Shown here: positions 2,998-22,774 of the stretch, piece after piece
Layout: every line of letters starts with the position of its first letter
Position numbering within the stretch: position 1 is the first letter of the stretch
Assembly (NCBI RefSeq): GCF_003206715.1
Contig: NZ_PZJU01000060.1
Coordinates: 1 to 34,133, forward strand
DNA: 34,133 nucleotides
Direction: 5' to 3'
DNA from: Salinicola peritrichatus
GTDB taxonomy: Bacteria; Pseudomonadota; Gammaproteobacteria; Pseudomonadales; Halomonadaceae
The notes under the pieces: generated by a model
What the model saw: the letters and a program-made list of their open reading frames with translations, nothing else
What the model was told of the DNA's origin: nothing
Database searches by the model: none
Position numbers and translations under genes: made by a program

Positions 2998-3231
2998 AAT
3001 GTTTCGGGCTTACCTGCGTTGCCTCCTGGGCTGGTAGCCTACCATTCCGGCGGACCCGCAAGAGCGGTATTGAACGAAAGGCGGATTCGGTTCGACGCCG
3101 TTGCGTCGCGGCCATCCCAGTGACGACACAAGGCTTCGAACAGGACGTGCCGTGCCGAAAACGCAGGCGCTGTCACGGCGCCAACGCCATCGCTCTCCCT
3201 GGCTGGAGCGACACCCGCCGAGACGTCATGC
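2998..3231. other. Intergenic region, benE to araC
   Basis: These 234 bases contain no gene that I can support. A small inverted repeat, TGGTAgccTACCA, lies near 3030-3045, and an AGGAGG sits about 24 bases before the AraC start, too far away to serve it. No T-rich terminator hairpin was seen behind benE. Read-through into araC is therefore possible. Confidence 0.4.
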
Positions 3232-4494
3232 TCACGCCGAATCGATCGATTGCCGATGTTTCCGTGTCTTCGCTGCTTCGCCGAGCAATTCCGACACCAC
3301 GATTCCCGCCACCAGGGCCCAGAAAGGCGAGCTGATACCCAGCAGACTGAGCTTGCTCATGGCCACGACCAGGGCAACGAAGGCGCCGACCTGATAACCG
3401 ACCGACTTGGTGAAGGCCTGCTGGAACGCCGCCAGCAACACGCCGATCATCGCCACGCCGGCAACGCTGGCAATCAATGCCTTGGGCAGCGCGAGAATCA
3501 GCGGCACCGCCATTCCCGCGAACAGGCCGAAGAGACAGAACAGCACCCCATTGACCAGGGTGGCGCCAAAGCGCTTGTCTCGATCGTCGCCGGCCTGCTC
3601 GGAGGCGCAGATCGCGGTCATCGGCCCGGCGATATTGGCGTTGTGACCACCCAGCGCGCCCGCCACGATGCCACCGATGCCGCTGATCACCGTCATTGCG
3701 TTGACCGGTGGCCGGTAACCCTCGGCCATCAACACGCCGGTGGCCTGGGCGTTCTCGGCGCCGATCACCAGCGCCGCCAGAGGCACCGATATCGAGATGA
3801 AGGCGTCGAACGAAAAATGCGGCAGCGTGAACTGCGGCGCCACCATGGCGATATCCACGTTGGCCGACTGCACCGCGCCACTGAAATAAGCCACGACGAA
3901 ACCGACCACCGCGGCGACCAGAACCGGCGGCACCGAATTCAGGAAGCGGGACGCCAGAAAAAACGCGGCGAGTGCCGTTCCCGCGATCAGTGGCGCCGTG
4001 CCGACGGATTCCACGGCACCCACGCCGAACCGGATCAATGCCCCGGCGATCATCGCCATCACGATCGGCATCGGCAGCCAGCGCATGATGCGACCGATCA
4101 GCCCGCTGATACCGAGCAGCAGCACGATGACGCCGCTCATGATGAAAGCGCCGACGGCCTCGGCAAACGGAATCGAGACCAGGGCGACGCTCATGATGGC
4201 TGCACCTGGAATCGAGTAAGCGCCAGTGATCGGCTGGCGGTACCGTATTGCCATGACCAGGCTGATCAGCCCTCCCAGGAAATAGACCGCGAACAACCAG
4301 GCCACGGTCTGGCCATTGGTCAGGTGACCAGCGTTCGCTGCACTGATCACGATCAATGCCGGCCCGGAGCAACCAAATAGCGCCGCCACTATGCCGGCAC
4401 TGATGCTCTTGACCGAGAGCGCCCGTGGTAGTTCCTGCCAGAATCCGGACCGGCGGTCCGCTGGTTGCGTGGACTGAAGCTGCTCGTGAGACAT
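3232..4494 (-). CDS. benE: BenE-family benzoate/H+ symporter-type permease
   Basis: This inner-membrane transporter has 420 residues and about 11-12 hydrophobic segments. Family landmarks are GIVAALFGCSGPALIVISAA near the N-terminus, YSIPGAAIMSVAL, IGAENAQATGVLMAEGYRPP in the middle, and GGHNANIAGPMTAICAS. BenE proteins import benzoate with protons. Here the gene is the last of a minus-strand catabolic operon, 60 bases after hmfE, so the likely cargo is the substrate of that pathway. I infer 2-furoate, a small aromatic acid similar to benzoate. The start at 4494 (MSHEQLQ) is preferred over an ATG 33 bases upstream because GAGGAG lies seven bases before it. No benzoate dioxygenase genes are present in the window. 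Confidence 0.88.
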   Translation of the reverse strand: MSHEQLQSTQPADRRSGFWQELPRALSVKSISAGIVAALFGCSGPALIVISAANAGHLTNGQTVAWLFAVYFLGGLISLVMAIRYRQPITGAYSIPGAAIMSVALVSIPFAEAVGAFIMSGVIVLLLGISGLIGRIMRWLPMPIVMAMIAGALIRFGVGAVESVGTAPLIAGTALAAFFLASRFLNSVPPVLVAAVVGFVVAYFSGAVQSANVDIAMVAPQFTLPHFSFDAFISISVPLAALVIGAENAQATGVLMAEGYRPPVNAMTVISGIGGIVAGALGGHNANIAGPMTAICASEQAGDDRDKRFGATLVNGVLFCLFGLFAGMAVPLILALPKALIASVAGVAMIGVLLAAFQQAFTKSVGYQVGAFVALVVAMSKLSLLGISSPFWALVAGIVVSELLGEAAKTRKHRQSIDSA

Positions 4495-4554
4495 GGCGTG
4501 GCTCCTCGTGATTGTTATGTTGCCCATCGATGCAGGCGGATCCGTCGCGAGGGG

Positions 4555-5358
4555 CTACTCTCCGCGGAATACCGCCTTGCGTTTGGCGTGGAATGCCTCG
4601 ACACCCTCGCGGAAGTCGTTCGAGCTGCGCAGGCGGCTGTAGCAGTGCCCTTCCATCTCGATGGCGACCGAGAGCGGTGCGTCTTCGTTGTCATTGATCA
4701 GCTTTTTGGCGGTGCGCTGGGCCAGCGGCGAGAAACGGCGCAACTCGTCGACCAGCGACTGCGTGGCGCCTTCCAGCTGGTCGTCCGCCACGCACTCGGT
4801 GGCGATGCCCCACTCCAGCGCCTGGGCCCCCGAGATACGCTTGGCGCGCATCACCATGTGCTTGGTACGGGTGATGCCGATGATCTTCTGCAGCCGTGCC
4901 GAGCCGCCCGAGCCCGGAATCTGACCCAGGTTCTGCTCCGGCAGGGCGTATAGCGTGGTTTCGGATGCGATACGAAAATCGCAGGCCAGCGAGAACTCGA
5001 AACCGACGCCGAAGGTGTAGCCGCGGTTGACCGCGATCACCGGCTTCTCGCAGCGCGCCGGCGCCGCCACGTTCCACGCCAGCTTGGAGACGTGCTCGGG
5101 CGAGGCTTCGAGGAAGCCCTTGATATCGCCACCGCTGGAGAAGTGCTCGCCTTCCCCGCGCAGCACGATCACGCGCACGCCGTCGTGAGCGTCCAATGCC
5201 TCGAAGACCTGGCGCATCGCCTCGCGCTGGGGCATGGAGATCACGTTCAGCGGTGGCCGCTTGAGCACGATGTCCGCACGCTCGCGATCGGTGTCGACAT
5301 GCACCTCGAAGCCATCGAATTCGGAAGCCAGGAAGTCCTGTGGAGAGTGTTGGTTCAT
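4555..5358 (-). CDS. hmfE: Enoyl-CoA hydratase family protein, probable 2-oxoglutaroyl-CoA hydrolase
   Basis: This 267-residue crotonase-fold protein has the oxyanion-hole segments SSGGDIKGF (about 72-80) and GYTFGVGFEFSLACDFRIAS, and the active-site loop LPEQNLGQIPGSGG. By family alone it could be an enoyl-CoA hydratase, isomerase or hydrolase. Its position directly after an acyl-CoA ligase and a three-subunit molybdenum hydroxylase matches the described hmfABCDE furoate cluster of Cupriavidus. There HmfE hydrolyses the ring-opened 2-oxoglutaroyl-CoA to 2-oxoglutarate. The specific assignment therefore rests on context. A good ribosome binding site (AAGAGGAAAA) precedes the ATG. The gap to the ligase gene is 33 bases and to benE 60 bases, consistent with one transcript. 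Confidence 0.7.
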   Translation of the reverse strand: MNQHSPQDFLASEFDGFEVHVDTDRERADIVLKRPPLNVISMPQREAMRQVFEALDAHDGVRVIVLRGEGEHFSSGGDIKGFLEASPEHVSKLAWNVAAPARCEKPVIAVNRGYTFGVGFEFSLACDFRIASETTLYALPEQNLGQIPGSGGSARLQKIIGITRTKHMVMRAKRISGAQALEWGIATECVADDQLEGATQSLVDELRRFSPLAQRTAKKLINDNEDAPLSVAIEMEGHCYSRLRSSNDFREGVEAFHAKRKAVFRGE

Positions 5359-5391
5359 TGCATTTTCCTCTTGGAATCGTTCGAAAGCGGA

Positions 5392-6921
5392 TTAACTGGC
5401 CTGCGCCTGGTCGGCGCGCTCGGCAAGCAGCACGCGGCGCAGCACCTTGCCGACGGCCGACTTGGGAATCTCTTCGACGAAAACGTAACGGCGCGGGCGC
5501 TTGAACCGCGCCAGTCCGGCGTCCACGCAGTGACGTCCCAGTTCCTCCTCGCTGATCGGCTCGCGACACTTGACGAAGGCGGCGACGACCTGCCCCCACT
5601 GTTCGTCGGGCAGGCCGGCGACGACGACCTCCTCGACCTTGGGATGCAGCGAAAGCACGTTCTCGATCTCCGCCGGGCTGACGTTTTCGCCGCCGGTGAT
5701 GATCAGGTCGTCGACCCGACCGGTGACGAACAGGTCGCCATCGGCATCGAAATAGCCGGTATCGCTGGTGAAGTACCAGCCCTGCTTGATTGCCTTGGCA
5801 TCGGCATCGGGGCGCCGCCAATAGCCCTGGAAGGCCTCGTCGCCGGCGAGATCGGCGATGATCTCGCCCTCTTCGCCGGGCGGCAGCACCTCGTCGGGCG
5901 ATTCGGCGCTGACCCGAACGACGCGGATGCGCTGGTTGAGCGAAGCGCGACCGGAGGACCCCGGTTTGCGGCTGGCACGCTGGTCGATGGTGAAGGTGTA
6001 GATCTCCGAGCAGCCGTAGTGATTGACGAACAGACTCGGCTGGAAAGCTTTCTCGACCCTGGTCATCAGACCGGCGCTCATCGCGGCGCCGGCAAAGCCG
6101 ATCTTGTCGACGCTGGCGACCCGCGAAGGTGAAAACCCGGGATGCTCGATCAGCATGTGATAGAGCGTCGGCACCAGATAGAGATTGGTGACGCCCTCGC
6201 GTTCGATCGCCTCCAGCGTCGTTTGCGGATCGAACTTGGGCACGCACACGAAGTGGCCGTCGATCAGCGTCATGGCCAGCAGCGAGCGCACGCCCATGGT
6301 GTGATACAGCGGCATCACGCCGAGCGTGCATTCGTCGTGGCGATAGAGATTCTGGGCGACATGGGCCAGCGCCGCGGCGCGCTCGGCCCGATGGGTGCGC
6401 GGCACGCCCTTGGGCTTGCCGCTGGTGCCGGAGGTGTAGAGCATCAGCGAGACATCTTCCGGCGCGGCGCGCAGGATCGTCTCCCCCGGCGCTCCCAACA
6501 GCGCCTCGAACGGCGTCATGCGATCATCCCGGGCCTCATCGACGACGATCCGAGGCAAGGCTTGCGCCTCGCGGCAGGCCTCGACCGCCTCGCGGCCGGA
6601 AGCGTCGTAGGCCACCGCGCGAATGTCGCCGTTATCGAGGCAGTAACGCACGTCCTGCGCACTCGAGCGCCAGTTGATCGGCGTCACAACGATGCCGGCG
6701 AACTGGCAGGCCCAGTGCAGCGTCGCCATCTGCCAGCGGTTCTGCATTACCACCAGCAGTCGATCGCCCTTGCCCAGTCCCAGATTCTCCAGGCCCCGCG
6801 CCGCGCTCTGAATGTCCTCGAACCAGGCGGCGTAGGTGCGTCGGAAAGCCCCGTCGGACACCGCCAGCGCCTGCGGGCGGCGCTCCACCGTGGCAAGAAA
6901 ACTGCGACCTAGATCGAACAT
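5392..6921 (-). CDS. hmfD: AMP-dependent acyl-CoA ligase, probable 2-furoate-CoA ligase
   Basis: This 509-residue ANL-superfamily enzyme activates a carboxylate with ATP and coenzyme A. The phosphate loop YTSGTSGKPKG lies near residue 160. The later signature YGCSEIYTFTIDQ is followed by the hinge region GRVDDLIITGGENVSPAEIE and the catalytic lysine in KSAVGKVLRR near residue 490. The start at 6921 (MFDLGRSF) is chosen because GGGAGA precedes it. The gene overlaps the end of the iron-sulfur subunit gene by 13 bases, which indicates translational coupling. A longer upstream open frame exists but lies wholly over the neighbouring gene. The 2-furoate specificity is inferred from the hmfABCDE order. 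A benzoate or other aromatic-acid ligase is the alternative. Confidence 0.78.
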   Translation of the reverse strand: MFDLGRSFLATVERRPQALAVSDGAFRRTYAAWFEDIQSAARGLENLGLGKGDRLLVVMQNRWQMATLHWACQFAGIVVTPINWRSSAQDVRYCLDNGDIRAVAYDASGREAVEACREAQALPRIVVDEARDDRMTPFEALLGAPGETILRAAPEDVSLMLYTSGTSGKPKGVPRTHRAERAAALAHVAQNLYRHDECTLGVMPLYHTMGVRSLLAMTLIDGHFVCVPKFDPQTTLEAIEREGVTNLYLVPTLYHMLIEHPGFSPSRVASVDKIGFAGAAMSAGLMTRVEKAFQPSLFVNHYGCSEIYTFTIDQRASRKPGSSGRASLNQRIRVVRVSAESPDEVLPPGEEGEIIADLAGDEAFQGYWRRPDADAKAIKQGWYFTSDTGYFDADGDLFVTGRVDDLIITGGENVSPAEIENVLSLHPKVEEVVVAGLPDEQWGQVVAAFVKCREPISEEELGRHCVDAGLARFKRPRRYVFVEEIPKSAVGKVLRRVLLAERADQAQAS

Positions 6922-7430
6922 GCGTCGTTCTCCCGTCGATTGGCTTGCTGGCGAGCGCGCGCGACCTCCAGCACGGCCCGGACGATGCCGGTATAGCCGG
7001 TGCAACGGCACAGATGCCCCGAAAGCATGTCGCGCACCTGTGCCTCGCTCGGATCGGGCACGCGGCCCAGAAACTCGTGGCACGACATCAGGATGCCGGC
7101 GGTGCAGAACCCGCACTGCAGCGCGTGATGCTCGCGAAACGCGCGCTGCAGATCGTTCATTTCTTCGTCCCCGGCCAGCGACTCGACCGTCTCCACGCTG
7201 CGGCCATCGGCCTGCACGGCGAGCATCAGACACGAGCGGGTCGCCCGGCCGTCGACCAGCACGGTGCAGGCACCGCAAACGCCGTGCTCGCAGCCCACGT
7301 GGGTGCCCGTCGCGCCGAGCTCGTGGCGCAGGAAATCGCACAGTTGCATGCGCGGCTCGGCACGGCCGCTGCGCTCCCTGCCGTTGAGCCTGAAGGTCAC
7401 GCGATGCCGTTCATCGCCTCGCACGTGCAT
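6909..7430 (-). CDS. hmfC: Molybdenum hydroxylase [2Fe-2S] subunit, probable furoyl-CoA dehydrogenase
   Basis: This small electron-transfer subunit of 173 residues carries all eight cluster cysteines. The plant-ferredoxin-type set is in CEHGVCGAC (47, 52, 55) with Cys67. The second set is in CGFC (106, 109) and CRC (141, 143). It passes electrons from the molybdenum centre to FAD in the xanthine-dehydrogenase family. The start at 7430 (MHVRGDERH) is chosen over the GTG at 7436 because GAGGAG lies seven bases before the ATG and only one before the GTG. The gene overlaps the FAD-subunit gene by 20 bases and the ligase gene by 13 bases, so the three are translated as one coupled block. Confidence 0.9.
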   Translation of the reverse strand: MHVRGDERHRVTFRLNGRERSGRAEPRMQLCDFLRHELGATGTHVGCEHGVCGACTVLVDGRATRSCLMLAVQADGRSVETVESLAGDEEMNDLQRAFREHHALQCGFCTAGILMSCHEFLGRVPDPSEAQVRDMLSGHLCRCTGYTGIVRAVLEVARARQQANRRENDACSI

Positions 7431-8274
7431 CGGCACTCTCCTCTACGGCTTGCTGTTCGAAAGTCGGCGCTTCCACGATCAGGCGACGCCCCAGTTCGCG
7501 GACCAGGTGGCGCCGGTAGGCGGCGCTGGCATGGACGTCATCCTGAGCTCCCAGCGACCACGCCAGGTGATTGAGGGCATCGTCGAGGTCGCCCTCTAGG
7601 GACAGCGTGCGCACGACCGGCCGGTCGGCGACGCCACCCACGCCGAGGCGCACTTCCGACTCGCCGATGTCGGCGGCCAGTGCGACGATGGCGAAGTCGC
7701 CATGGCGCATGGCGACTTCGCGGAAGCGATAGGCATGGCCTTCGCGCTTGAGTGGAAAACGCACTTCGGTGATCAGTTCGTCGGGACGGCGCGCGGTGGT
7801 CAGCACGCCCTGGAAGAAGTCCGCGCCGGCGACCCGCCGCGATTTGCCGCGGCGCGTCTCGAGCACCACCTCGCCGCCCAGCGTCGCCAGGCACAGCGGC
7901 AGCTCGGCGCTGGGATCGGCATGGGCGATGGAACCGCCGACGGTTCCACGGTTGCGTGTCTGGAAATGCCCCACCCACGGCAAGGCCTGCGCCACCAGCG
8001 GCAACTCATCGGCCAGGGCGGCGTACTCCAGCAGTTCGGCCTGCGTGGTCGCGGCACCGATCGCCAGGTGATCGTCGCGCCGCTCGATGTAGCGCAGTTC
8101 GTCGATGGCGCCGACATCGATCAGTATTCGCGGCTGGGCCAGGCGCATGTTGAGCACCGCCATCAACGACTGGCCGCCGGCGACGAGGCGGGCGTCGTCG
8201 CCGGACTCGATCAGCCGGTCGATGGCTTCCCGCCGCGTTTGCGGACGGTAATAGTCGAAAGCGCACGGTTTCAT
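7411..8274 (-). CDS. hmfB: Molybdenum hydroxylase FAD subunit, probable furoyl-CoA dehydrogenase
   Basis: This 287-residue FAD-binding middle subunit belongs to the xanthine dehydrogenase/CO dehydrogenase family. The two FAD-contacting motifs are present: LVAGGQSLMAVLNMRLAQP near the N-terminus and TRNRGTVGGSIAHADPSAE in the middle. A typical C-terminal CoxM-like domain follows. The start at 8274 (MKPCAFDYY) overlaps the stop of the large-subunit gene as ATGA, and the frame upstream of it lies inside that gene. The subunit accepts electrons from the iron-sulfur protein and passes them onward. The acceptor cannot be read from the sequence. The specific substrate is inferred from the operon. 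Confidence 0.88.
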   Translation of the reverse strand: MKPCAFDYYRPQTRREAIDRLIESGDDARLVAGGQSLMAVLNMRLAQPRILIDVGAIDELRYIERRDDHLAIGAATTQAELLEYAALADELPLVAQALPWVGHFQTRNRGTVGGSIAHADPSAELPLCLATLGGEVVLETRRGKSRRVAGADFFQGVLTTARRPDELITEVRFPLKREGHAYRFREVAMRHGDFAIVALAADIGESEVRLGVGGVADRPVVRTLSLEGDLDDALNHLAWSLGAQDDVHASAAYRRHLVRELGRRLIVEAPTFEQQAVEESADARARR

Positions 8275-11273
8275 GACTTGCCTCCGCCCTTGCCGAACCG
8301 GCCCAGCAGGCGCTGCAGCAACGGCTGGCGAACCCTGCCGCCGCTGACCCGTTGCGATAGCCGCGAGAAGATCTGACCGATGATCATCTTCGAGGCGCTG
8401 GAGAGCATGCGTCCGCCGACCGAGGCGATCTTGCCGCCGATCGTCACCTCGTAGTCGTAGTCGAGCCGGGTATGGCCGCCCTCGATCTCGCTCAGGCGGA
8501 TCCGCGCCGCGCCGTCGGCATTGCCCATGCCGCTGCTGCCGGCGCCGGAGAGGCGCAGCGCGTGCGGAGGATCGAGCTCGCTCAGCTCGACGCGGGCATC
8601 GAAGCGCGCCCGAATCATGCCCACGCCGACGGTGACATCGGCGCGGTAGGTGTTCTCGCCGGTGAGCTCCAGCGCATGGCAACCGGGAATGATCGCCTGC
8701 AGCGTGGCGGGGTCGAGAATGCTGTCGAAGACTTGCCGGGGCGAAGCGGGAATCTCGACGCTATCGCTGGCGGTCAATTTGGAACCGCCGCCGGCGGCCG
8801 CATCCGCTGGCTCTTCGCCGACGCCTTCGGGGCGCGCGGGTTCGTCGATGCCCAGCAGCGTGCGCACCTTCGAGGGCGTCAACGGCAATTCGATGGCGCC
8901 CGGGTCGACGCCTTCCCCCAGCGCATCGGCCACCGCGTTGGCGATGCACACCGGCGTGCTCATGTTGTTGCCTTCGCCGACGCCCTTGGCGCCGAGCGGC
9001 GTGAACGGCGACGGCGTCTCCATGTGCAGGATCACCGGCTCCGGCACTTCCACGCTGGTCGGGATCAGGTAGTCGGCCAGCGTGCCGGAGGCGAAGCTGC
9101 CGTCCTCGCCATAGCGGAACTCCTCGTAAAGCGCCGCGCCGACGGCCTGGGCGAAGGCGCCGCGCACCTGTCCGTCCACCAGTTGCGGGTTGAGCATGCG
9201 GCCGGCATCGTGCAGCGTCACGTAGCGATCGATACGTACCTGGCCGGTGACGGCGTCGATCTCGACGCCGCAGTAGTCGAAGATGAAGCCGTAGCAGAGC
9301 GAGCTGTTGATGCGTTCGTCATCGTCCGGCGCGGTCAGTTCGGCGGGGGTCCAGAAGGCCGTCTCGCGCAGGCCGCCGGCTTCGCTCTCGGGCAGCGTGC
9401 CCGGCGCCCAGTGGGTGGCGCCGGCGAGGCGGTGGAACGAGGCGGAATGCGCGCCATCCAGGGTGAACACACGGCCTTCGGCAAAGCGCACGTCGTCTTG
9501 CTCGACCCGCCACTGCGCGGCGGCAATCGCGGCCAGGCGCGTGCGAACCTTGAGCGCGGCCTTGTGTACGGCGCCCGCCACCGCGCCGGCGAAACGGCTG
9601 GAGTAATTGCCCGAGGCGATCGACCAGGCATCCTTGCCGGTATCCAGTTCGACATCGACGCGTATGGCTTCGATGGCGATACCGAGCACCTCGGCCACGA
9701 CCTGGGCGACCACCGTGCGATGGCCCTGGCCCTGCGGCGTCGAGGAGACGTGAACGCTGACGCCGCCGAGCGGATCGACGCTGATCGTCGCGGTACTCAC
9801 CGCACCGTTCTTGGGCCCGGCGCGACGCCGCTCCTCCGGCGTCATCGCCATGGTGATGTAGCCCATGTTGGAGATCGACGGCTCCACCGCCACGCAGTAA
9901 CCGATGCCGTAGAGCCGGCCTTCGCGGCAGGCGGCGTCGCGGCGCGCACGCAACTCGGCGAGGCCACCGTGTTCGACACCCAGCTCGATGCCATGTGCGT
10001 AATCGCCCGAGTCCAGCAGCGCTCCGGCGGCACAGCGGTAGGGAAAGGCATCCGCGGGGACGAGATTGCGCCGGATCACTTCCAGCGGATCGAGGTCGAG
10101 CTCGATCGCGATCCGCTGCATCAGGCGCTCGAGGGCGAAGTACACCTGCGGGCCGCCGAAGCCGCGGTTCAGCCCGCTCGGCGTCTTGTTGGTCATCACG
10201 ATGCGATTGCGAACCGCGAGATGGGGAATCGCGTAGGCGCCGGTGAGATTGCCGTGCATGCGATAGGTCGTGGCCGGCTCGGGTGCGCGCAGGTAGGCAC
10301 CGCAGTCGTCCAGTTGGTCGAAGCACAGCGCGGACACCTGCCCTTCGCCGTCGAAGGCGGCGTCGATCGTGGTGACCCGGTTGGTTGCCGACGAGGCTCC
10401 CTGCAGGTGTTCGAGGCGATCCTCGACCCACTTGACCGGCGCCCCGACCTTGCGCGCCGCCAGCGCCATCGTCACCACATAGGGAAAAACGCCCTGCTTG
10501 ATGCCGAAACTGCCGCCGGAATCCGCTGGCGTGCGCAGGCGCAGGCGATTGCCCGGCACTTGCAGCGCCCGCGCCATCACCGAATGGATCGCGAACGGCC
10601 CCTGGAAATTGGCCATCACGTCGTAACCGCCCTCGGCGGCGTCGTACTGGCCAACCACGACGTAGCACTCGATCGGCGTACAGGAACTGCGCGGGTAGCG
10701 CACCTTGAGCGAGAGCGTGCGATCCGCCGTCCGAAATGCAGCTTCCGGGTCGCCGTAGCGGAAGTGACGATCGTTGACCACGTTATCGCCCACGGCATCG
10801 TGCAGCAGCGTCTCCCGGTCGCCGGCCGCCGCTTCGGGATCGACGAGCGCGGGCAGAATCTCGTATTCGACCTTGACCGCGTCCAGCGCGTCTTCGGCGA
10901 GGTAACGATCCTCGGCGATGACGACCGCCACCGGCTCGCCGACGTAGCGCACCTTGTCGACCGCCAGGCACCAGTGCTCCATGGGCTGGCGCACTCCGAC
11001 CGCAAACGGTGACGCCCAGCGCTTGACGTCTTCGCCGGTCAGCACTCCGCGCACGCCCGGCAGGCCCAGGGCCGCCTCGATCGCGACCCGCTTCAGTCGT
11101 GCATGGGCATGCGGCGAGCGCACGATGGCGGCGTGAAGCGTGCCCGGCGGCACGGCGAGATCATCGGCGTAACGTCCCAGGCCACGCAGCAACGCCTCGT
11201 CCTCGACCCGCGCCTGGCGCTTGCCGATCAGCGAACATGACTGCTCGTCGCGAAGCGAAACTTCTGTATTCAT
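8271..11273 (-). CDS. hmfA: Molybdenum hydroxylase large subunit fused to CoxG/SRPBCC domain, probable furoyl-CoA dehydrogenase
   Basis: This 1000-residue catalytic subunit binds the molybdopterin cofactor. The N-terminal domain (LLRGLGRYADDL, RSPHAHARL) and the molybdenum-binding domains follow the aldehyde oxidase/xanthine dehydrogenase pattern. They include GGSFGIKQG, the arginine loop GLNRGFGGPQ near residue 367, and the catalytic glutamate in GAKGVGEGNN near residue 766. After about residue 832 comes a second domain of the CoxG/SRPBCC type (VEIPASPRQVFDSILDP, IIPGC) with a basic, probably helical tail. The start at 11273 (MNTEVSLRD) has GAGGAG seven bases upstream and is preferred to the GTG at 11300. 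It is the first gene of the operon. In known furoate clusters this subunit hydroxylates furoyl-CoA at ring position 5. CO dehydrogenase is less likely because the CO-specific cysteine loop is absent. Confidence 0.82.
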   Translation of the reverse strand: MNTEVSLRDEQSCSLIGKRQARVEDEALLRGLGRYADDLAVPPGTLHAAIVRSPHAHARLKRVAIEAALGLPGVRGVLTGEDVKRWASPFAVGVRQPMEHWCLAVDKVRYVGEPVAVVIAEDRYLAEDALDAVKVEYEILPALVDPEAAAGDRETLLHDAVGDNVVNDRHFRYGDPEAAFRTADRTLSLKVRYPRSSCTPIECYVVVGQYDAAEGGYDVMANFQGPFAIHSVMARALQVPGNRLRLRTPADSGGSFGIKQGVFPYVVTMALAARKVGAPVKWVEDRLEHLQGASSATNRVTTIDAAFDGEGQVSALCFDQLDDCGAYLRAPEPATTYRMHGNLTGAYAIPHLAVRNRIVMTNKTPSGLNRGFGGPQVYFALERLMQRIAIELDLDPLEVIRRNLVPADAFPYRCAAGALLDSGDYAHGIELGVEHGGLAELRARRDAACREGRLYGIGYCVAVEPSISNMGYITMAMTPEERRRAGPKNGAVSTATISVDPLGGVSVHVSSTPQGQGHRTVVAQVVAEVLGIAIEAIRVDVELDTGKDAWSIASGNYSSRFAGAVAGAVHKAALKVRTRLAAIAAAQWRVEQDDVRFAEGRVFTLDGAHSASFHRLAGATHWAPGTLPESEAGGLRETAFWTPAELTAPDDDERINSSLCYGFIFDYCGVEIDAVTGQVRIDRYVTLHDAGRMLNPQLVDGQVRGAFAQAVGAALYEEFRYGEDGSFASGTLADYLIPTSVEVPEPVILHMETPSPFTPLGAKGVGEGNNMSTPVCIANAVADALGEGVDPGAIELPLTPSKVRTLLGIDEPARPEGVGEEPADAAAGGGSKLTASDSVEIPASPRQVFDSILDPATLQAIIPGCHALELTGENTYRADVTVGVGMIRARFDARVELSELDPPHALRLSGAGSSGMGNADGAARIRLSEIEGGHTRLDYDYEVTIGGKIASVGGRMLSSASKMIIGQIFSRLSQRVSGGRVRQPLLQRLLGRFGKGGGKS

Positions 11274-12012: not shown

Positions 12013-12498
12013 TCATTCGGCGGACGCGACATTCGTCGCCTCGATGGCGTCGAGCCGCTTGTCCATCCGCCAGGCGGCACAGCCGTCGGCGTAGTAATCA
12101 TCGAGCCAGCGATGGGCAACGAATCCCATGCGGCGATAGAGCCCCATCGCCACCCGGTTGTCGGCGCGCACCTCCAACGCCAGGCGCTGGCTGCCCCGCT
12201 CCCGCGCGGCAGCCTCGAGCGCCTGGAGCAGTTCCCGGCCCAAACCGCTGCCGCGGGCTTCGGGATCGACGCAGAACGAGTAGAGCCGCGCCGTTCGGCT
12301 GTTGCGCCGGAACAGTAGCGTACCGTAACCGATCACGCGCTGGTCGTCGGTCACGGCAATCAGCGTCCGTGCATTGGCACGGGAGAGCAAGTGGGCGAGT
12401 TGCCGGCGACTGAAGCGGTCGCCTTCGAAGCAGCGTTCTTCCAATCGATACAGGGCATCGCAATCGGCCGGCTGGCCGGGGCGGAGGGTGCGAAGCAT
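12013..12498 (-). CDS. GNAT-family N-acetyltransferase (RimI-like)
   Basis: This 161-residue protein has a single GNAT fold. The acetyl-CoA binding signature V-D-P-E-A-R-G-S-G-L-G is central, followed by ALEVRADNRVAMGLYRRMGF, which is typical of RimI-like enzymes. The gene is divergent from an ATP-grasp ligase of the RLAN/RimK type. The pairing of such ligases with GNAT enzymes has been described in comparative genomics as a probable peptide or small-molecule modification system. The start at 12498 (MLRTLRPGQP) is preferred over the GTG at 12516 by homology-like length. Neither has a strong ribosome binding site. The substrate is unknown. Confidence 0.85.
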   Translation of the reverse strand: MLRTLRPGQPADCDALYRLEERCFEGDRFSRRQLAHLLSRANARTLIAVTDDQRVIGYGTLLFRRNSRTARLYSFCVDPEARGSGLGRELLQALEAAARERGSQRLALEVRADNRVAMGLYRRMGFVAHRWLDDYYADGCAAWRMDKRLDAIEATNVASAE

Positions 12499-12710
12499 GA
12501 GTGGCGCTCGTTCCACAGCAATTCGGTGTGATCCCGGCGCGAACCGGCAGATGAATCCGTCCGGCCCGCCGTGGGCGGCTATGATGAAATTATTTCACGG
12601 CGGCAACCGCTTGTCGCGATTCTCCGGCCAGCGCATGCTGGCGCCACGAAAAGCGCCGTTCGGAAAGCGCAAGCAGCCCCGCCAGGCACGCGCAGAGGAG
12701 CCACCGATTG
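12499..12710. promoter_or_regulatory. Divergent intergenic region, GNAT to ATP-grasp gene
   Basis: These bases lie between two divergent genes and must hold at least one promoter. A perfect 13-base palindrome, TGAAATtATTTCA, lies at 12585-12597. It directly overlaps a possible -10 box, TATGAT (12580-12585), for the rightward gene. No good -35 box was found. GAGGAG at 12695-12700 is the ribosome binding site of the ATP-grasp gene. The palindrome could be an operator, but no regulator is identified. Confidence 0.4.
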
Positions 12711-14198
12711 ATGTCACGCCTGCGTATCGTCGTCGACCGATTGGCCGACTGGCAGCCCTACTATCCTTCCGACGATCTGATCGCTGCGGCGGACTTTCTG
12801 GCACTGGATGGCGCGGCGAGCGCCGACGATGCCAGCCATGTGATCAACCTGTGCGCCAACCTCGACTATCTCGAGACCGGCTACTATGTCTCGCTGCTGG
12901 CCCAGGCTCACGATCAGCGCGTGCTGCCGAGCGTGGAGACGCTCAACCAACTATCGCGCAAGGCGCTGATCGACATGCAGCTGGCCTCGATCGATCCGCT
13001 GCTGCTGGAGCTGGATCGTCGCGGCGCCTTGAGCGGCGATTCGCTGACGCTGCGCGTGCTGTTCGGCGAGTGCCGCGAGCCGGAACTGCAGCGTCTGGCC
13101 CGGCGGCTGTTCGAGCGCCTGCCCCTGCCACTGCTCGAGGCCCGTTTCGAAAAGCGCCAGGGCGCGTGGCGACTGGCCCGGCTCAGGCCGTTGGCGCTGA
13201 CGGCGCTCGCCAACAGCGAAGAGGATCTGTTCGCCAGCGCCCTGAATCGTCATTCGATGAAGGTCTGGCGCACGCCGCGGGCACGCCGCCGCTATCGCTT
13301 CGACCTGGCGATCCTGGTCGACCCGCAGGAGAAACTGCCGCCGAGCAACAAGGGCGCGATCAAGCGTTTCATTCGCGCCGGACGCAAGCTCGGCATCGAC
13401 GTCAGCCTCATCACCCACCGCGACGCCGGCCGCCTGGCGGAGTTCGATGCGCTGTTCATTCGCGAAACCACGCGGCTCGATCATCATACCTACCGCATGG
13501 CCAAGAAGGCCGAGCACGAAGGGCTGGTGGTGATCGACGACCCGCAGTCGATCCTGCGCTGCACCAACAAGATCTATCTCCACGCGCTGCTGGGGACCCA
13601 CAAGATCCCCGCGCCTCGCGGCCGCCTGTTGCACCGCAGCGATATGCGCCAGCTCGGCGACAAGCTTGCCGGCCTCCACTATCCGCTGGTGCTGAAAGTG
13701 CCGGATGGCGCCTTTTCCCGAGGCGTGGTCAAGATCCGCTCGCGCGGCGAGCTGGAGGCCGAAGCGCCGTGCCTGTTCGAATCCTCGGCGCTGCTGCTGC
13801 TGCAGGAGTGGCTGCCGACCGATTTCGACTGGCGCATCGGCGTGCTCGACGGCCAGGTGCTGTTCGCCAGCCGCTACTTCATGGCACGCGGCCACTGGCA
13901 GATCTACGATCATTCCAGCGGCAAGACCCGTAGCGGCGGCTTCACCACCCACGATCCAGCGGAAGTACCGGTGCCGGTGGTCAAGGCCGCGCTACGCGCC
14001 ACCCGGTTGATCGGCAATGGGCTCTACGGCGTCGACCTCAAGCAGATCGGCGAACGCGTGGTGGTAATCGAGGTCAACGACAATCCTAACCTGGATGTCG
14101 GAGTCGAGGACGTGGTGCTCAAGGATGCGCTCTACGAGCGAGTGATGGCGGTATTCCTGCAGCGGATGGAACGCCGACTGGAGCGCAAGCCGGCATGA
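12711..14198 (+). CDS. RimK-type ATP-grasp ligase with N-terminal RLAN domain
   Basis: This 495-residue protein has an N-terminal domain (about 1-200) that resembles the RimK-like ATP-grasp N-terminal (RLAN) domain. A C-terminal ATP-grasp ligase domain follows. Landmarks of the ligase part are FDALFIRETT, DDPQSILRCTNKIYLHALL, the lysine-bearing PLVLKVPDGAFSRGVVKI and the metal-binding end GVDLKQIGERVVVIEVNDNP. Such enzymes join a carboxylate and an amine with ATP, often adding amino acids to a peptide or protein end. The real substrate here is not known. The gene is divergent from a GNAT gene. The start at 12711 is preferred to the TTG at 12708. GAGGAG stands 10 bases before the ATG. The family is common in Gammaproteobacteria. 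Confidence 0.85.
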   Translation: MSRLRIVVDRLADWQPYYPSDDLIAAADFLALDGAASADDASHVINLCANLDYLETGYYVSLLAQAHDQRVLPSVETLNQLSRKALIDMQLASIDPLLLELDRRGALSGDSLTLRVLFGECREPELQRLARRLFERLPLPLLEARFEKRQGAWRLARLRPLALTALANSEEDLFASALNRHSMKVWRTPRARRRYRFDLAILVDPQEKLPPSNKGAIKRFIRAGRKLGIDVSLITHRDAGRLAEFDALFIRETTRLDHHTYRMAKKAEHEGLVVIDDPQSILRCTNKIYLHALLGTHKIPAPRGRLLHRSDMRQLGDKLAGLHYPLVLKVPDGAFSRGVVKIRSRGELEAEAPCLFESSALLLLQEWLPTDFDWRIGVLDGQVLFASRYFMARGHWQIYDHSSGKTRSGGFTTHDPAEVPVPVVKAALRATRLIGNGLYGVDLKQIGERVVVIEVNDNPNLDVGVEDVVLKDALYERVMAVFLQRMERRLERKPA

Positions 14199-14205
14199 AG
14201 TGAAA

Positions 14206-14226
14206 CGCCGCCGGCCTCAGGCGGCG
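14206..14226. terminator. Hairpin between convergent genes
   Basis: CGCCGCC and GGCGGCG form a perfect 7-bp stem around a 7-base loop between the convergent ATP-grasp and DUF2797 genes. The right arm lies in the last codons of the DUF2797 gene. No T tract follows on either strand, so the efficiency as an intrinsic terminator is doubtful. Confidence 0.4.
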
Positions 14227-15077
14227 TCGACGTCGATCCGGTAGCCGGCGAATTTGCGCAGGTTGATCACCCCGCGATCCAGAATCAGGTACTGGCCCTT
14301 GAGCCCCATCAGGGTGCCCTCGACCAGCGGCGTCTTGTCGAAGTTGAACGACACGATCTTGCGCGGCCACTCGAGCACCGGATAGTCGATCGCCAGCGGC
14401 CGCGCATCGTCGATGGGCCGAATGGCACCCTCGCCGAAACGCTCGCGCAACGCCGCCAGGTCCGGCGCCAGCGCGCCCAGCAATCGATCCCTTTCCGCCA
14501 TCAGGTCGAGCGGCTCCACTTCGCCCTTGAGCATCGCCCGCCAGTTGGTGCGGTCGGAAACCCGCGACTTGAACAGCGTCTCCACCAGCCCGGACTGCTG
14601 CCGGGTGTCGACTTCGAGAATCGGCAGCGCCTGGATCGCGCCCTGGTCCAGCCAGCGTGTCGGCGTGTTGGTGCCGCGGGTGATGCCCACCTTGAGCCCC
14701 GAGGCGTTGGCCAGATAGACGAGGTGCGGACGAAAGCAGTGGCGCTCGCCCCACTCGGGCTCGCGGCAGGTGCCCTTGAAGTAATGGCAGGTTTCCGGCC
14801 GCACGAGGCATAGATCGCACTGCGCCAGCGTGCTGAAGCAGGGGTAGCAGTATCCCTGGCCGAAACTCTTGCGCGTCGCGCGACCGCAATGGACGCAGTG
14901 AATGGCACCCGTATGGTGCAGGCGGATCCGTTGCCCCAACTTGGCATTGAGCGCCAGATGCTGCTCACTGGCGCGCAAGCGGTAGTCGGCCGTACCGGAA
15001 GCGGGCAGCCGAATCTCCAGTTTGCGCAGTTGGCCGCTGACGCGCTCGCCGGGCTCCGTCAGGATCAGTTGATCCAT
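14217..15077 (-). CDS. DUF2797 domain-containing protein
   Basis: This 286-residue protein has a cysteine-rich zinc-ribbon-like region in its first half: CVHCGRATRKSFGQGYCYPC, then CDLC and a later CHYFKGTC. The middle segment HLVYLANASGLKVGITRGTN resembles a GIY-YIG-like core, with Y, L-K-V-G-I and a downstream R-W. That is the pattern I know for DUF2797. The function of the family is unknown. The start at 15077 overlaps the stop of the DUF1315 gene by 13 bases, so the two are translationally coupled. A longer upstream open frame of 56 codons lies over that gene and is not used. The conserved run glpG, DUF1315, DUF2797 looks like one operon. Confidence 0.82.
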   Translation of the reverse strand: MDQLILTEPGERVSGQLRKLEIRLPASGTADYRLRASEQHLALNAKLGQRIRLHHTGAIHCVHCGRATRKSFGQGYCYPCFSTLAQCDLCLVRPETCHYFKGTCREPEWGERHCFRPHLVYLANASGLKVGITRGTNTPTRWLDQGAIQALPILEVDTRQQSGLVETLFKSRVSDRTNWRAMLKGEVEPLDLMAERDRLLGALAPDLAALRERFGEGAIRPIDDARPLAIDYPVLEWPRKIVSFNFDKTPLVEGTLMGLKGQYLILDRGVINLRKFAGYRIDVDAA

Positions 15078-15331
15078 TTGACTGCCGCTTCCTCCGCGGA
15101 CGAGTGGCTTCCCGAGGCACATTCGTTGCGCTCCAGGTAGCCGACCCGCTGCTCGGCGGGGACATCGTGGATCATCTCGTACTTGATCACCGCCTCCAGA
15201 CAGAGCTCGGTCTGCTCCGCGCTCAAGCGGCGGCCATCGGGCCACTTGCGCAGTTGAATCGCCTGCTTGAAGTTCTCGTACATCGCCGGCGTCATCTGCG
15301 CGACCATGCGGTCGAAGTTCATCTCGTTCAT
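15065..15331 (-). CDS. DUF1315 (YeaC-like) family protein
   Basis: This small cytoplasmic protein of 88 residues has the family pattern: NFDRMVAQMTPAMYENFKQA, then LRKWPDGRRLSAEQTELCLEA and VIKYE. The start at 15331 (MNEMNFDRM) is preferred because CAGGAGA precedes it by about eight bases. The longer frame to 15373 would overlap the glpG stop. The tail after YLERNE is low in similarity and overlaps the next gene. The function is not known. The gene lies 16 bases after glpG and overlaps the DUF2797 gene by 13 bases. Confidence 0.85.
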   Translation of the reverse strand: MNEMNFDRMVAQMTPAMYENFKQAIQLRKWPDGRRLSAEQTELCLEAVIKYEMIHDVPAEQRVGYLERNECASGSHSSAEEAAVKWIN

Positions 15332-15347
15332 GATGTTTCTCCTGCGT

Positions 15348-16211
15348 TCACGATCCATTGCCCGAACCGCCATTCGCGACCGAGCGGCTGGCGAACCAGC
15401 CGACGATCAACCCGACCAGCAGCCCGCCGAGATGGGCCTCGTTGGCCACGTTGCCGAAGCCGATCGTGCCGGCCAGGTCGGTCATGGTAAAGACCATCCA
15501 CAGCAACATGAACACGACCAGCATCTGCGGCACGAAGTAGCCGCTGCCGGGGCGTCGACGCGACATCAGCCAGACGTAACCCAGCAATGCATAGTCGACG
15601 CCGGACATGCCGCCGAACAGCACCGTACCGGTCAGGTATTGCGCCAGGTTGGACACGACGGCCGCCACGACGACGATCAACCCCAACCTGCGCCAGCCCT
15701 GGATCGACTCGATCTGGCGACCGAAGTACCACAGCCAGAGCATGTTGAAGATCAAGTGCATCCAGCCAAAGTGCAGCAGCGCCGGGGTGAAGAGGCGCCA
15801 GATCTGGCCGCTGGTCAAGGTGGTACTCAGATCCCCGGCCACGAGCCGCTGCCCCACCACCTCCAGCGGAACGATGGTGAGGGCGCGGACAAGGATATCG
15901 CCGGCAAACATCATGGCCAGGAACAGCGCAATGCAGACGGCAATGAGTCCGGCCGCCAGCGGCGCCTGGCCGAAAGCCTGATCGGCGATGCTGGGCCGGC
16001 GCGGCGGCGCCGACGGCCTCGCGCTGCTCAGTTCGCCCCGATGCCACAGCTCGATCAGGCGCGCGGCCTCGTCGCGTTGTTTCGGGTTGGCCAGCCACAG
16101 GATCTGCTGACCCTCCTGCTGGGTGAAGCGATGACCGATATGGTGCGCCCACAGCGCCTGTCGCAGCGGTCGCGTATCGAGGTCGCCTGGCAAGGCGAGA
16201 AGTTTGTACAT
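15348..16211 (-). CDS. glpG: Rhomboid-family intramembrane serine protease, GlpG-like
   Basis: This 287-residue protein has an N-terminal cytosolic domain (about 1-80) and six membrane segments, as in GlpG. The catalytic serine is Ser203 in GMSG and the catalytic histidine is His260 in NEAHLGG. The oxyanion-stabilising His152 and Asn156 are in HLIFN, with WRLFTPALLHFGW just before them. It cleaves membrane proteins inside the bilayer. The natural targets are not visible here. The start at 16211 (MYKLLALPGD) has GGAAA a few bases upstream. The GTG or ATG at 16226 would add only five residues. It heads the run of glpG, DUF1315 and DUF2797 genes. Confidence 0.93.
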   Translation of the reverse strand: MYKLLALPGDLDTRPLRQALWAHHIGHRFTQQEGQQILWLANPKQRDEAARLIELWHRGELSSARPSAPPRRPSIADQAFGQAPLAAGLIAVCIALFLAMMFAGDILVRALTIVPLEVVGQRLVAGDLSTTLTSGQIWRLFTPALLHFGWMHLIFNMLWLWYFGRQIESIQGWRRLGLIVVVAAVVSNLAQYLTGTVLFGGMSGVDYALLGYVWLMSRRRPGSGYFVPQMLVVFMLLWMVFTMTDLAGTIGFGNVANEAHLGGLLVGLIVGWFASRSVANGGSGNGS

Positions 16212-16315
16212 GAGATTTCCGACCACTTGCCGAAAAGACCCGGCCCGACTCGCGAGAAGCGCGACGACGACCCGCTGACCCGCTGTTCATTTTACCGGAG
16301 CCCATTCTACAGGTG

Positions 16316-16350
16316 CCAAAAAGAAAAATCCGGCGGGAGGGCCGCCGGAT
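16316..16350 (-). terminator. Rho-independent terminator
   Basis: On the minus strand ATCCGGCGG and CCGCCGGAT form a perfect 9-bp stem with a 5-base loop, followed by TTTTTCTTTTT. It lies about 180 bases beyond the metallophosphatase stop, so it probably ends the nadK-metallophosphatase transcript or an unannotated short RNA just upstream. Confidence 0.8.
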
Positions 16351-16525
16351 AAGAGCAAGGGATCATTCAAGGGAACACTGCGTTTGAGGCGGTTCCGAGT
16401 CGAGAGTTCCAGCGCGTGGCGAAAAAAATCCCGCTTTTTTCGCATTGACCTGGTGTAAATACAAAAAATCCTGCCAAATCAGGCACAAGAAGCGATGTAA
16501 AAAAATGCAAAAATCGGATCGGAGG
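16351..16525. other. Gene-free stretch upstream of terminator
   Basis: These 175 bases lie between the metallophosphatase stop and the terminator. They are part of a stretch of about 314 bases with no protein gene. They hold an AT-rich inverted repeat, GCGAAAAAA and TTTTTTCGC (16419-16427 and 16435-16443), and a small CCTG/CAGG hairpin near 16470. The base composition changes sharply to A-rich. A long 3' untranslated region or a small RNA ending at the terminator is possible. No promoter for the latter is convincing. Confidence 0.4.
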
Positions 16526-17536
16526 TTATTCACCTCGCGCCCGGGGGGTGACGTCGGAAAAACCGGCGATGCTCTCCGGCGTGACCCGCACCCACACGAA
16601 GCGATCGGCATCGAGCCGTTCCTCGCCGTCCCAGCGGTAGGCGACCAGACGCCCGCATTTGACGGCGCTGTAGTCCAGGCAGGCGATGTTGGCCCGCGGC
16701 AGTGCCGGTACGCCCCTGCACCAGTAGTGACCGATGAACAGCGGCGGCGCCGTTTCCGGATACCAGCTCAATCGCTCGCGCTCGGCGTCGCTCAGCGGGC
16801 GATCTTCCAGATCGTGAGGCAGATTGTCGGGCTGGAACACCACGTCGCCATAGGTCCCGGGATTCCGGCACCAGAAATGCGTGCGGAACGAACGTCGCGT
16901 GAAGCCGTCCCCCGAACGAATCTCGACACCCGGCGGCAACGGTATCTGGGTCCCGCGAGTCAGCCGGTCCATCACCCGGTGGGCGAAACTGCCATGGCGG
17001 GTCGACTCGACCAGGAATTCGCGGTCGATCCGGCCATCCGGGTAGCGCTCGAGCAGGCGCGTGACCAGGGGCTCGTCCCAGCAGGCGTGAACCACGCGCA
17101 TGCCGTCGAGTTCCAGGCACAGCGGCAGCGTCAGGAACCAGGCGAGATAGCTCTCCCACTCCAGAGGATATTCGTGAAACTGTTCCAGCGTGCGAGCGAT
17201 GATCCGATTGTTGCGCGGGTTGTGGTCACGCAACCATTCCCGCGCGTGCCCGCTCGGTGCTTCCAGACAGTAGGCAAGCGCGTTGTATTCGTGATTGCCC
17301 ATGACGATCTGCGCTTCGCCGGCATCCACCATGCGCTTGGCGACCGATACCGCCAGACGAATATTCGGCCCGCGGTCGATCAGGTCGCCGAGAAAGATGA
17401 CCTTGCGCCGCGGATGGCGATAGACGCCGTCCTCGTCACGATAGCCGAGTTTCTCGAGCAGGCGCACCAAGGTGCGTCCGCAGCCGTGCACGTCGCCGAT
17501 CAGGTCGTAACCGTCGAGCCCTGCCTGCAATGCCAT
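16526..17536 (-). CDS. Calcineurin-like metallophosphoesterase (ApaH/PrpE-like)
   Basis: This 336-residue protein has the full metallophosphatase signature: GDVHG (14-18), GDLIDRG (50-56), GNHE (80-83), a later HACWDEPL and the final metal-binding GHYW. The family includes diadenosine tetraphosphate hydrolases and Ser/Thr phosphatases. The protein is longer than ApaH (about 280 residues) and carries a C-terminal extension. The precise substrate is therefore open. The start at 17536 (MALQAGLDGY) has GGGAGA upstream and lies one base after the nadK stop, so the two genes are co-transcribed. The extra 22 codons of the longer frame would lie in nadK. Confidence 0.88.
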   Translation of the reverse strand: MALQAGLDGYDLIGDVHGCGRTLVRLLEKLGYRDEDGVYRHPRRKVIFLGDLIDRGPNIRLAVSVAKRMVDAGEAQIVMGNHEYNALAYCLEAPSGHAREWLRDHNPRNNRIIARTLEQFHEYPLEWESYLAWFLTLPLCLELDGMRVVHACWDEPLVTRLLERYPDGRIDREFLVESTRHGSFAHRVMDRLTRGTQIPLPPGVEIRSGDGFTRRSFRTHFWCRNPGTYGDVVFQPDNLPHDLEDRPLSDAERERLSWYPETAPPLFIGHYWCRGVPALPRANIACLDYSAVKCGRLVAYRWDGEERLDADRFVWVRVTPESIAGFSDVTPRARGE

Positions 17537-17537
17537 C

Positions 17538-18419: not shown

Positions 18420-18451
18420 GCAACTTGTCTCTCGCGGCGTGACGGCCAGCC

Positions 18452-18480
18452 ATTATGCTGGCTGGCTCATATCGCGGCAA
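18452..18480 (-). promoter_or_regulatory. Probable sigma-70 promoter of nadK
   Basis: On the minus strand TTGCCG (18480-18475) and CATAAT (18457-18452) are separated by 17 bases. The -10 box lies in the loop of an inverted repeat, GCCAGCC/GGCTGGC (18445-18451 and 18460-18466), which might be an operator. Confidence 0.55.
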
Positions 18481-18757
18481 ACGGGACCTTCAGTACTACA
18501 TTCAGCACTGTGGAGGAAGGTTTCCCTCGATATGTGCCGGCGGCAACCGCTGCCTTTTGCCCCAACGCCCAGCACAATATTTTTTGCTGCCAATTATCCA
18601 ATAGTATGATTTTTTTACTATCATACCGAGCAAGCGACAGACTCAATGTCGCTCACTGCCCTGTTTCGTTCGTGCCTTTGACTTGGTGCAATACCAAGCC
18701 ACTGTCGAAAGGGCATCATTACGTCTCTCAAGGTCTTTCAAGGAGAAATATAACGTC
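18481..18757 (+). promoter_or_regulatory. Hairpin-rich leader upstream of the quinoprotein unit
   Basis: This stretch, with the nadK promoter, makes up a gene-free region of about 340 bases. Three hairpins follow each other on the plus strand. They are GTATGAT/ATCATAC (18604-18626, 9-base T-rich loop), AGCGACA/TGTCGCT (18633-18653, 7-base loop) and CTTGGT/ACCAAG (18682-18698, 5-base loop). A possible -35 box TTGACT (18679-18684) overlaps the third, but its -10 partner is poor. AAGGAG at 18740-18745 serves the next gene. The series may be an RNA leader, a terminator remnant or operators. I do not recognise a known riboswitch. Confidence 0.35.
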
Positions 18758-19123: not shown

Positions 19124-19133
19124 GGAGTTCCCC

Positions 19134-21242: not shown

Positions 21243-21263
21243 CCAGGTTGAAAACCACCGATG

Positions 21264-21294
21264 CGGGGTAGGCTACGGCCTACCCCGTTTTTTT
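21264..21294 (+). terminator. Rho-independent terminator after quinoprotein gene
   Basis: CGGGGTAGG and CCTACCCCG form a perfect 9-bp stem with a 6-base loop, followed by seven T residues. It lies 21 bases after the stop codon. It ends the membrane protein/quinoprotein transcript, so the following catabolic cluster needs its own promoter in 21295-21419. Confidence 0.92.
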
Positions 21295-22715: not shown

Positions 22716-22774
22716 TCGGTTTCCTTCATTCGCAACGGGCCATGGCGCATGGCCCTGATCAACCGGAGATGCGC

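Follow-up and report, generated by a model that had tools for sequence, protein, structure and literature searches.

The window analysed here, a stretch of 34,133 nucleotides that forms contig C68 of a 4.62-Mb draft genome, carries genes for a molybdenum hydroxylase, a CoA ligase, and a crotonase-family hydrolase, followed by a permease whose family is named for benzoate. This raises the question of which acid the operon degrades and which acid its permease carries. Judged from its sequence, the locus is very probably an hmfABCDE-type operon for the catabolism of 2-furoate, with an AraC-type regulator and a BenE-type uptake permease of its own, in a Salinicola-like bacterium. The earlier note on this DNA had proposed a halophile-like genome; since the closest named loci (among the best 80 of 435 relatives, from which records of the window's own genome may be missing) were those of Salinicola, with HmfA proteins 83%–84% identical, that guess was right.

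Organization of the six-gene operon

The operon was read on the minus strand from position 11273 to position 3232 in the order hmfA-B-C-D-E-benE. The first gene, hmfA-like (8271–11273), has an ATG start and encodes the putative molybdenum-binding large subunit of a 2-furoyl-CoA dehydrogenase (1000 aa), to whose C-terminus a CoxG domain is fused (PF06240, 85 bits), a feature absent from the earlier note. It was followed by the hmfB-like FAD subunit gene (7411–8274, 287 aa), the hmfC-like 2Fe-2S subunit gene (6909–7430, 173 aa), and the hmfD-like gene of an AMP-forming CoA ligase (5392–6921, 509 aa), each starting with ATG and overlapping its predecessor by 4 (ATGA), 20, and 13 bases, respectively. 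After a gap of 33 bases came the hmfE-like gene of a crotonase-family hydrolase (4555–5358, 267 aa), and after a further 27 bases the gene of a BenE-family permease (3232–4527, 431 aa), which matched the BenE models and was assigned to an hmf-linked subfamily with a Glu258 signature. The Pfam domains along the operon were MoCoBD_1/2, Ald_Xan_dh_C, FAD_binding_5, CO_deh_flav_C, Fer2/Fer2_2, AMP-binding, ECH_1, and BenE. All six reading frames were intact, with a start and a stop codon each, and the genes, positions, and overlaps given in the earlier note were exact.

Downstream on the same strand lay the open reading frame of an AraC-family regulator (2146–2997, 283 aa), also absent from the earlier note, whose relatives adjoin hmf genes in other bacteria. 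It was followed by a Mutator-family transposase ORF on the plus strand (519–1817, Pfam match), which is near the cluster and outside the pathway. A YajQ (DUF520) gene was found upstream of the operon. The AraC protein is likely the regulator of the operon; the presence of an AraC relative in only 21 of the 34 BenE loci among the 80 named loci (best 80 of 435), within the stretch covered, counts against a reading that includes this regulator. A scan for promoters and terminators returned two promoter-like and seven terminator-like sites, compared with shuffled means of 1.5 and 5.7, and was set aside.

Elsewhere on the plus strand of the window, an ORF of 692 aa (22819–24897) had a hydroxyisobutyrate-dehydrogenase-like match only at residues 391–669, its first 350 or so residues being without a Pfam match; a DUF3100 ORF lay upstream of it and aldehyde dehydrogenase and O-methyltransferase genes downstream. 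A PQQ-dependent dehydrogenase-type ORF of 702 aa was present at 19134–21242 (+).

Relationship of the five enzymes to known hmf clusters

Full-length relatives of all five enzymes, 56%–84% identical and in the same order, were found in the hmf clusters of Cupriavidus, Paraburkholderia, and Pseudomonas. When the large subunit was searched with tblastn against 72,556 plasmids, 1056 records matched, 26 of them at 60% identity or more. The 30 plasmid matches listed were 57%–62% identical over 95%–98% of the large subunit, including the CoxG part, with Azospirillum, Paraburkholderia, Burkholderia, Caballeronia, Cupriavidus, and some others as hosts. The annotated neighborhoods of Cupriavidus pinatubonensis, Azospirillum, and Paraburkholderia contained the identical five genes in the identical order, and in Paraburkholderia these were preceded by UbiD and UbiX and followed by a GMC oxidoreductase, which we take to be HmfH. 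Such flanks are the mark of the upper pathway for HMF and FDCA, HmfF being the FDCA decarboxylase according to the available text of PMC12064950.

The earlier note had proposed a comparison of the five proteins with those of Cupriavidus, for which two Cupriavidus relatives, L002 and L124, stood in for Cupriavidus basilensis HMF14. The identities to L002 ran from 56% to 77% in the same gene order (HmfA 61%, HmfB 56%, HmfC 75%, HmfD 60%, and HmfE 77%), which at the level of sequence is the same pattern as that printed for HmfA–E of HMF14 versus Pseudomonas pseudoalcaligenes (64%, 59%, 77%, 61%, and 80%; available text of PMC6678421). HmfE was 76%–77% identical to the proteins of three Burkholderiales loci. 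As far as the same source describes them, the hmfABCDE genes of HMF14 agree with those of the window in number, order, and enzyme classes. It also describes P. pseudoalcaligenes CECT 5344, where hmfABCDE are accompanied by a downstream benE, AraC, and PsfD and where selection for growth on furfural yielded a regulator mutation; PsfD lies within that locus, whereas the XdhC/PsfD relative of the window genome is on another contig.

In a scan of named genomes, limited to the best 80 of 435 related loci, a script recovered the order A-B-C-D-E in 74. The six exceptions comprised the short contigs L061, L064, and L125, two loci in which no HmfE was found (L068 and L072), and L062, which contains all five genes with an extra ligase upstream and is thus a 75th locus with the set. 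Because five genes share one order in 74 of these 80 loci, the arrangement is not due to chance, and the gene order named in the earlier note, that of hmfABCDE, is borne out. Near the same 80 loci (best 80 of 435), UbiD was present in 32 cases, UbiD with UbiX in 24, UbiD with UbiX and GMC oxidase in 18, AraC in 36, and XdhC in 28; GMC oxidase was near 18 of them, and the UbiD relatives were 54%–90% identical to a Paraburkholderia UbiD.

A tree of 51 large-subunit sequences, obtained by a short search with SH-aLRT support and no bootstrap, gathered 30 HmfA rows from proteobacteria into a single group (support 100), with the window HmfA inside it and UbiD- and GMC-linked loci in the same clade. 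Two Bacillota and three haloarchaeal rows stood next to this group (joint group 98). Of 16 other molybdenum hydroxylases, 15 were apart, and the remaining one, L199, attached basally to the joint group by a long branch. Among 151 genomes of the family, an HmfA ortholog (71%–100% identical) was found in 17, and the only other genome with a match at E ≤ 1e-100 had one of 36%; in the six genomes of the same genus that possess HmfA, the protein was 83%–95% conserved. For the window itself the outcome is ordinary, its hmf cluster having the same make-up as the others of the family.

As a point against the furoate reading, the NCBIfam matches of the window included no furoyl-CoA dehydrogenase model, and the three dehydrogenase subunits reached the cut-off of none of the listed models, the large subunit scoring 358.9 against an equivalog cut-off of 994.55 for 4-HBCR, 410.5 against 991.15 for CODH, and 336.9 against 780 for XdhA. 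The nearest solved chains were CO dehydrogenase and quinoline 2-oxidoreductase for the large subunit, 2pcs for its C-terminus (a chain called CoxG-like from its Pfam match), and 4-chlorobenzoate CoA ligase for HmfD. Alignment of HmfE with crotonase-type hydratases of known structure showed that two glutamates (gfEfslacd and lpEqnlg), presumably the catalytic pair, were kept. The 56%–84% relatives, the conserved order, the HmfA clade, and the linkage of named loci to UbiD, UbiX, and GMC oxidase support the reading of the earlier note that the operon would degrade furoate.

Some of the related loci were unusual. L213 (genome G699) contained hmfABCD with UbiD and UbiX, and no HmfE was found within its 18-kb stretch. 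Pseudomonas borbori had two hmf clusters on one contig (NZ_FOWX01000034.1), L084 with BenE and L068 with an MFS permease. In the Halomonadaceae genome G033, contigs C50 and C53 carried another BenE, incomplete and 77% identical, and another HmfA, a broken fragment of 69% identity with two stops; these are probably what is left of a decayed second cluster.

Proposed pathway and its substrate

In the proposed pathway, BenE would take up furoate with a proton, HmfD would by homology convert it to 2-furoyl-CoA, and the Mo/FAD/2Fe-2S hydroxylase HmfABC would hydroxylate the latter at C5. The hydroxylated product would tautomerise to an enol-lactone, the opening of which may be spontaneous or proceed via HmfE or a hydrolase encoded elsewhere, and HmfE would release 2-oxoglutarate to the citric acid cycle. 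Molybdenum would be inserted with the help of the XdhC/PsfD relative, which is encoded on contig C32, unlinked to the operon, and matches the hmf-linked XdhC from the Halomonadaceae relative L032 with 64% identity across 314 aa. The description of the operon as likely complete in the earlier note calls for some caution, since this XdhC/PsfD relative is on another contig and the alpha/beta hydrolase of some other hmf loci is represented by a probable remnant.

Unlike the cluster of HMF14, the window operon has BenE after hmfE, and no UbiD (HmfF) or GMC oxidase (HmfH) was seen near it. The only UbiD found in the window genome was 29% identical to an hmf-linked UbiD and was rejected as HmfF. Given this distance, the genome seems, by sequence comparison, to lack an HmfF-dependent upper HMF pathway, and the operon would be fed with furoate, or with a precursor of it (furfural, for example), instead of FDCA.

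The lack of a nearby UbiD, which the window shares with 48 of the 80 named loci (best 80 of 435) within reach, would also be in keeping with an operon that degrades another heteroaromatic acid by the same chemistry, for instance thiophene-2-carboxylate or pyrrole-2-carboxylate, with furoate as a side substrate. Molybdenum hydroxylase, ligase, and crotonase chemistry would suit such acids. However, the large-subunit tree joins the window and the UbiD-linked loci in one group, HmfE is close to its Burkholderiales counterparts, and five BenE loci (5 of the 32 UbiD-bearing loci among the 80 named, best 80 of 435) have UbiD in reach, so that we regard another main substrate as quite unlikely.

Linkage of the BenE permease to hmf genes

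The permease matched PF03594 with 275 bits (cut-off 27) and TIGR00843 with 234.8 bits (cut-off 203.4), and is thus above the cut-offs of the family of benzoate permeases that includes, for example, BenE of Pseudomonas putida pWW53. It was the only BenE copy in the window genome. Among the 151 family genomes, BenE proteins of at least 72% identity were found in exactly the 17 genomes with an HmfA ortholog, directly after hmfE in all 17; in G128 the gene was cut by the contig end, with the remainder on contig C98. The other BenEs of the family were at most 39% identical among the matches listed, in which a short fragment could be missed, and some BenE at E ≤ 1e-10 was present in 101 of the 151 genomes.

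In a sample of 398 genomes of the phylum, HmfA (E ≤ 1e-140) was found in seven and a BenE of the window type (at least 68% identical) in four, all with HmfA about 4 kb away. Since three of these four (G000, G003, and G033) are shared with the family sample, G647 alone adds evidence. In the three remaining HmfA genomes, BenEs were at most 33% identical; two of these genomes had an MFS permease by hmfE, and the third was G699, with no HmfE found in the stretch. Among 94 plasmid records with BenE, five were at least 60% identical (Ensifer, Rhizobium, Shinella, and two of Paracoccus yeei), and in each of them HmfA lay at a distance of about 4 kb. In the 80 named loci (best 80 of 435), the scan of the 4.5 kb that follow hmfE found BenE in 34, MFS permeases in 38, and ABC transporters in 2, while one locus reached the contig end and five had no HmfE to start from. 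The MFS and ABC cases mean that the pathway as such does not depend on BenE. The earlier note had BenE replacing the usual transporter; it does follow hmfE, yet with 17 of 17 family hmf genomes and 34 of these 80 loci alike, it is no oddity.

The BenE tree was built from 86 sequences, 75 of which were kept after removal of rows with identical ends. All 43 hmf-linked rows formed a single clade (support 100/99), and the haloarchaeal rows stood beside it on a branch that was not starred (94/73), so that the haloarchaeal BenEs are, on this tree, the likely sister of the hmf-linked clade. BenE of the xyl plasmid pWW53, to which the window BenE was 37% identical, lay elsewhere in the tree, outside the clade of the window BenE, and so did the E. 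coli-type BenE group, which we take to be YdcO. The distances of BenE and HmfA were correlated (Mantel r 0.865, compared with at most 0.27 in 2000 permutations; n = 43, taken from 54 hmf loci so that no HmfA was counted twice), which fits joint inheritance, as would shared descent of the hosts. Because most BenE rows had been brought in by HmfA, the sampling favors hmf loci; as a control on this, BenE itself was the query in searches of the family, the phylum, and the plasmids.

Position 258 of the window BenE separated the hmf-linked and haloarchaeal proteins from the others. In a motif check of all 86 BenEs, glutamate was found in 54 of 54 hmf-linked and 4 of 4 haloarchaeal sequences and glutamine in 28 of 28 others. 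An aligned count, which used 48 of the 54 hmf rows (<450 aa), 3 of the 4 haloarchaeal rows, and 24 of the 28 others, gave glutamate in 48/48 and 3/3 and glutamine in 24/24. As it is fixed throughout the clade, Glu258 may mark descent instead of substrate. An AlphaFold model of BenE from a 14-row alignment had a mean pLDDT of 48.8 and a pTM of 0.46 and is too weak for assigning Glu258 to a binding site. A Foldseek search of the model against the PDB ranked SLC26Dg, SVCT1, UraA, and prestin first (16 matches at E ≤ 0.001, TM by query 0.42–0.51), which agrees with a UraA/SLC26 fold; with phmmer, the PDB yielded no relative of BenE at E ≤ 0.1.

BenE is likely a furoate/H+ symporter. The family name and the TIGR00843 match above the cut-off would suit a carrier of benzoate or some other aromatic acid that lies next to the furoate genes by chance. 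This reading is very unlikely, however, given the complete linkage in the family sample, where no relative above 39% lacking HmfA was among the matches listed, the single clade apart from the pWW53 and E. coli-type BenEs, and the glutamate in place of glutamine at position 258. Moreover, neither benzoate marker was above its cut-off in the draft genome (benA 97.3 bits, cut-off 780.95; boxB absent), in agreement with the earlier note, which had seen no benzoate ring-cleavage genes.

The furoate symporter proposed here has a precedent in the literature. The available text of PMC6678421 (2019) reports hmfABCDE-benE in CECT 5344 and offers furoate transport by BenE as a speculation, so that the core claim is not new; the suggestion of the earlier note that the BenE family extends to furoate fits the linkage and the clade, and had already been printed there. 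In P. umsongensis GO16, deletion of hmfI, labelled a putative furoic acid transporter, hurt growth on FDCA and not on furoate (available text of PMC12064950), which means that neighboring genes can mislead about substrates. In the literature searched, as far as these partly available sources go, furoate transport has hardly been tested, one offering the BenE speculation (PMC6678421) and the other a gene that affected growth on FDCA instead (PMC12064950). To the known hmfABCDE-benE arrangement, the analysis adds the BenE subfamily, its residue signature, its linkage in the family, and the archaeal parallel; Donoso 2021, on hmf genes in Proteobacteria, may already cover part of the BenE survey. 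A clade that is fully linked in the sample and has one diagnostic residue makes the substrate choice of BenE directly testable.

Probable remains of a hydrolase gene

L025, the closest relative, has an intact alpha/beta hydrolase gene (14074–14898) on the opposite strand, with BenE on one side and AraC on the other. Related hydrolases lie downstream of the hmf genes in L027 (60%) and, among the 80 named loci (best 80 of 435), in 14 loci, all of them from Pseudomonas (45%–50%). At the corresponding site of the window, 3099–3278 on the plus strand, overlapping the last bases of BenE, a trace of 61 aa and 41% identity scored 36.2 bits, compared with 24.3 for the best of 300 shuffles, and most of the short DNA matches there were collinear with the gene of the relative. 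By sequence, this is a probable remnant of the hydrolase gene. From its position, the hydrolase may be the hyd of PMC12064950, listed in Table 2 of the available text as a putative 5-hydroxy-2-furoyl-CoA hydrolase. An ORF after AraC in another Salinicola locus, L026, was rejected as a hydrolase, being a LigB-domain ORF.

Loss of the hydrolase in the window genome could mean a damaged pathway. A match was found in 4 of the 17 family hmf genomes and at the hmf locus in only 2, which means that most hmf loci of the family do without it, and the hydrolase was set aside as an essential step. That the cluster is decaying and the pathway falling out of use in this strain, as the remnant, the transposase at 519–1817, and the failure to find a second hydrolase copy in the window genome (G000) at E ≤ 1e-8 might suggest, is highly improbable in view of the six complete frames, the open AraC frame, the conservation of HmfA within the genus, and the common absence of the hydrolase from the hmf loci of the family.

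Related operons in haloarchaea and Bacillota

Four haloarchaeal plasmids, of Natrinema, two Halobaculum, and Halorussus (L041, L042, L043, and L167), carried operons with BenE (43%–47% identical to that of the window, with glutamate at position 258), a large subunit (41%–42%), and a ligase (44%–45%). They differ from the window operon in having no annotated crotonase, a DUF6282 protein and a PaaI-type thioesterase, a separate CoxG-like gene, another subunit order, and a second ligase. In the two Halobaculum and Halorussus the order was SRPBCC, BenE, DUF6282, PaaI thioesterase, ligase, FAD subunit, Fe-S subunit, molybdenum large subunit, second ligase, and XdhC, the SRPBCC gene being CoxG-like where tested (L042). 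In Natrinema the SRPBCC gene was about 10 kb away beside UbiD, which was 33%–40% identical to hmf-linked UbiDs and the only UbiD of the four in the stretches covered. Outside the archaea, the nearest relatives of the Natrinema large subunit were those of Geobacillus kaustophilus pHTA426 (47.5%) and Priestia (46%), followed by the HmfA type (40%–43%). The DUF6282 protein was weakly phosphotriesterase-like.

These plasmid operons are, by sequence, a candidate archaeal furoate pathway. Literature searches on haloarchaea with furoic acid or furfural returned no paper on haloarchaeal furoate use, and a search on Salinicola with furfural returned nothing. A broader reading, put forward tentatively and with rather less than even confidence, is that a furoate-specific BenE subfamily, marked by Glu258 and the motif G[GA]HNANIAGPMTA, accompanies furoyl-CoA dehydrogenases in Gammaproteobacteria and Alphaproteobacteria, with a sister among the haloarchaea, and that the haloarchaeal operon is a furoate pathway in which DUF6282 would open the lactone and the PaaI-type thioesterase would free 2-oxoglutarate, two steps for what HmfE may do in one. 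No gene is assigned to the lactone-opening step in the available text of PMC6678421, and if the haloarchaeal operons are furoate pathways, this step gains DUF6282 as a candidate. The pathway itself is ordinary; the part of interest is the transporter branch, with its closest cousins in salt-loving archaea.

An operon of the Geobacillus plasmid pHTA426 (L195) comprised UbiD, XdhC, molybdenum large subunit, CoxG, FAD subunit, Fe-S subunit, ligase, and crotonase, with proteins 39%–55% identical to HmfA–E of the window; it differs in its separate CoxG gene and its MFS permease, and no BenE was found in the 26-kb stretch. The Geobacillus UbiD has reportedly been studied as HmfF, which was given no weight in this analysis. 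On the Priestia megaterium plasmid pNCT2_4 (L193), a cluster at 12217–23535 contained crotonase, Fe-S subunit, FAD subunit, molybdenum large subunit, nucleotidyltransferase, and XdhC, with a hotdog protein and a BenE (41%) nearby, the latter having glutamine at the signature position.
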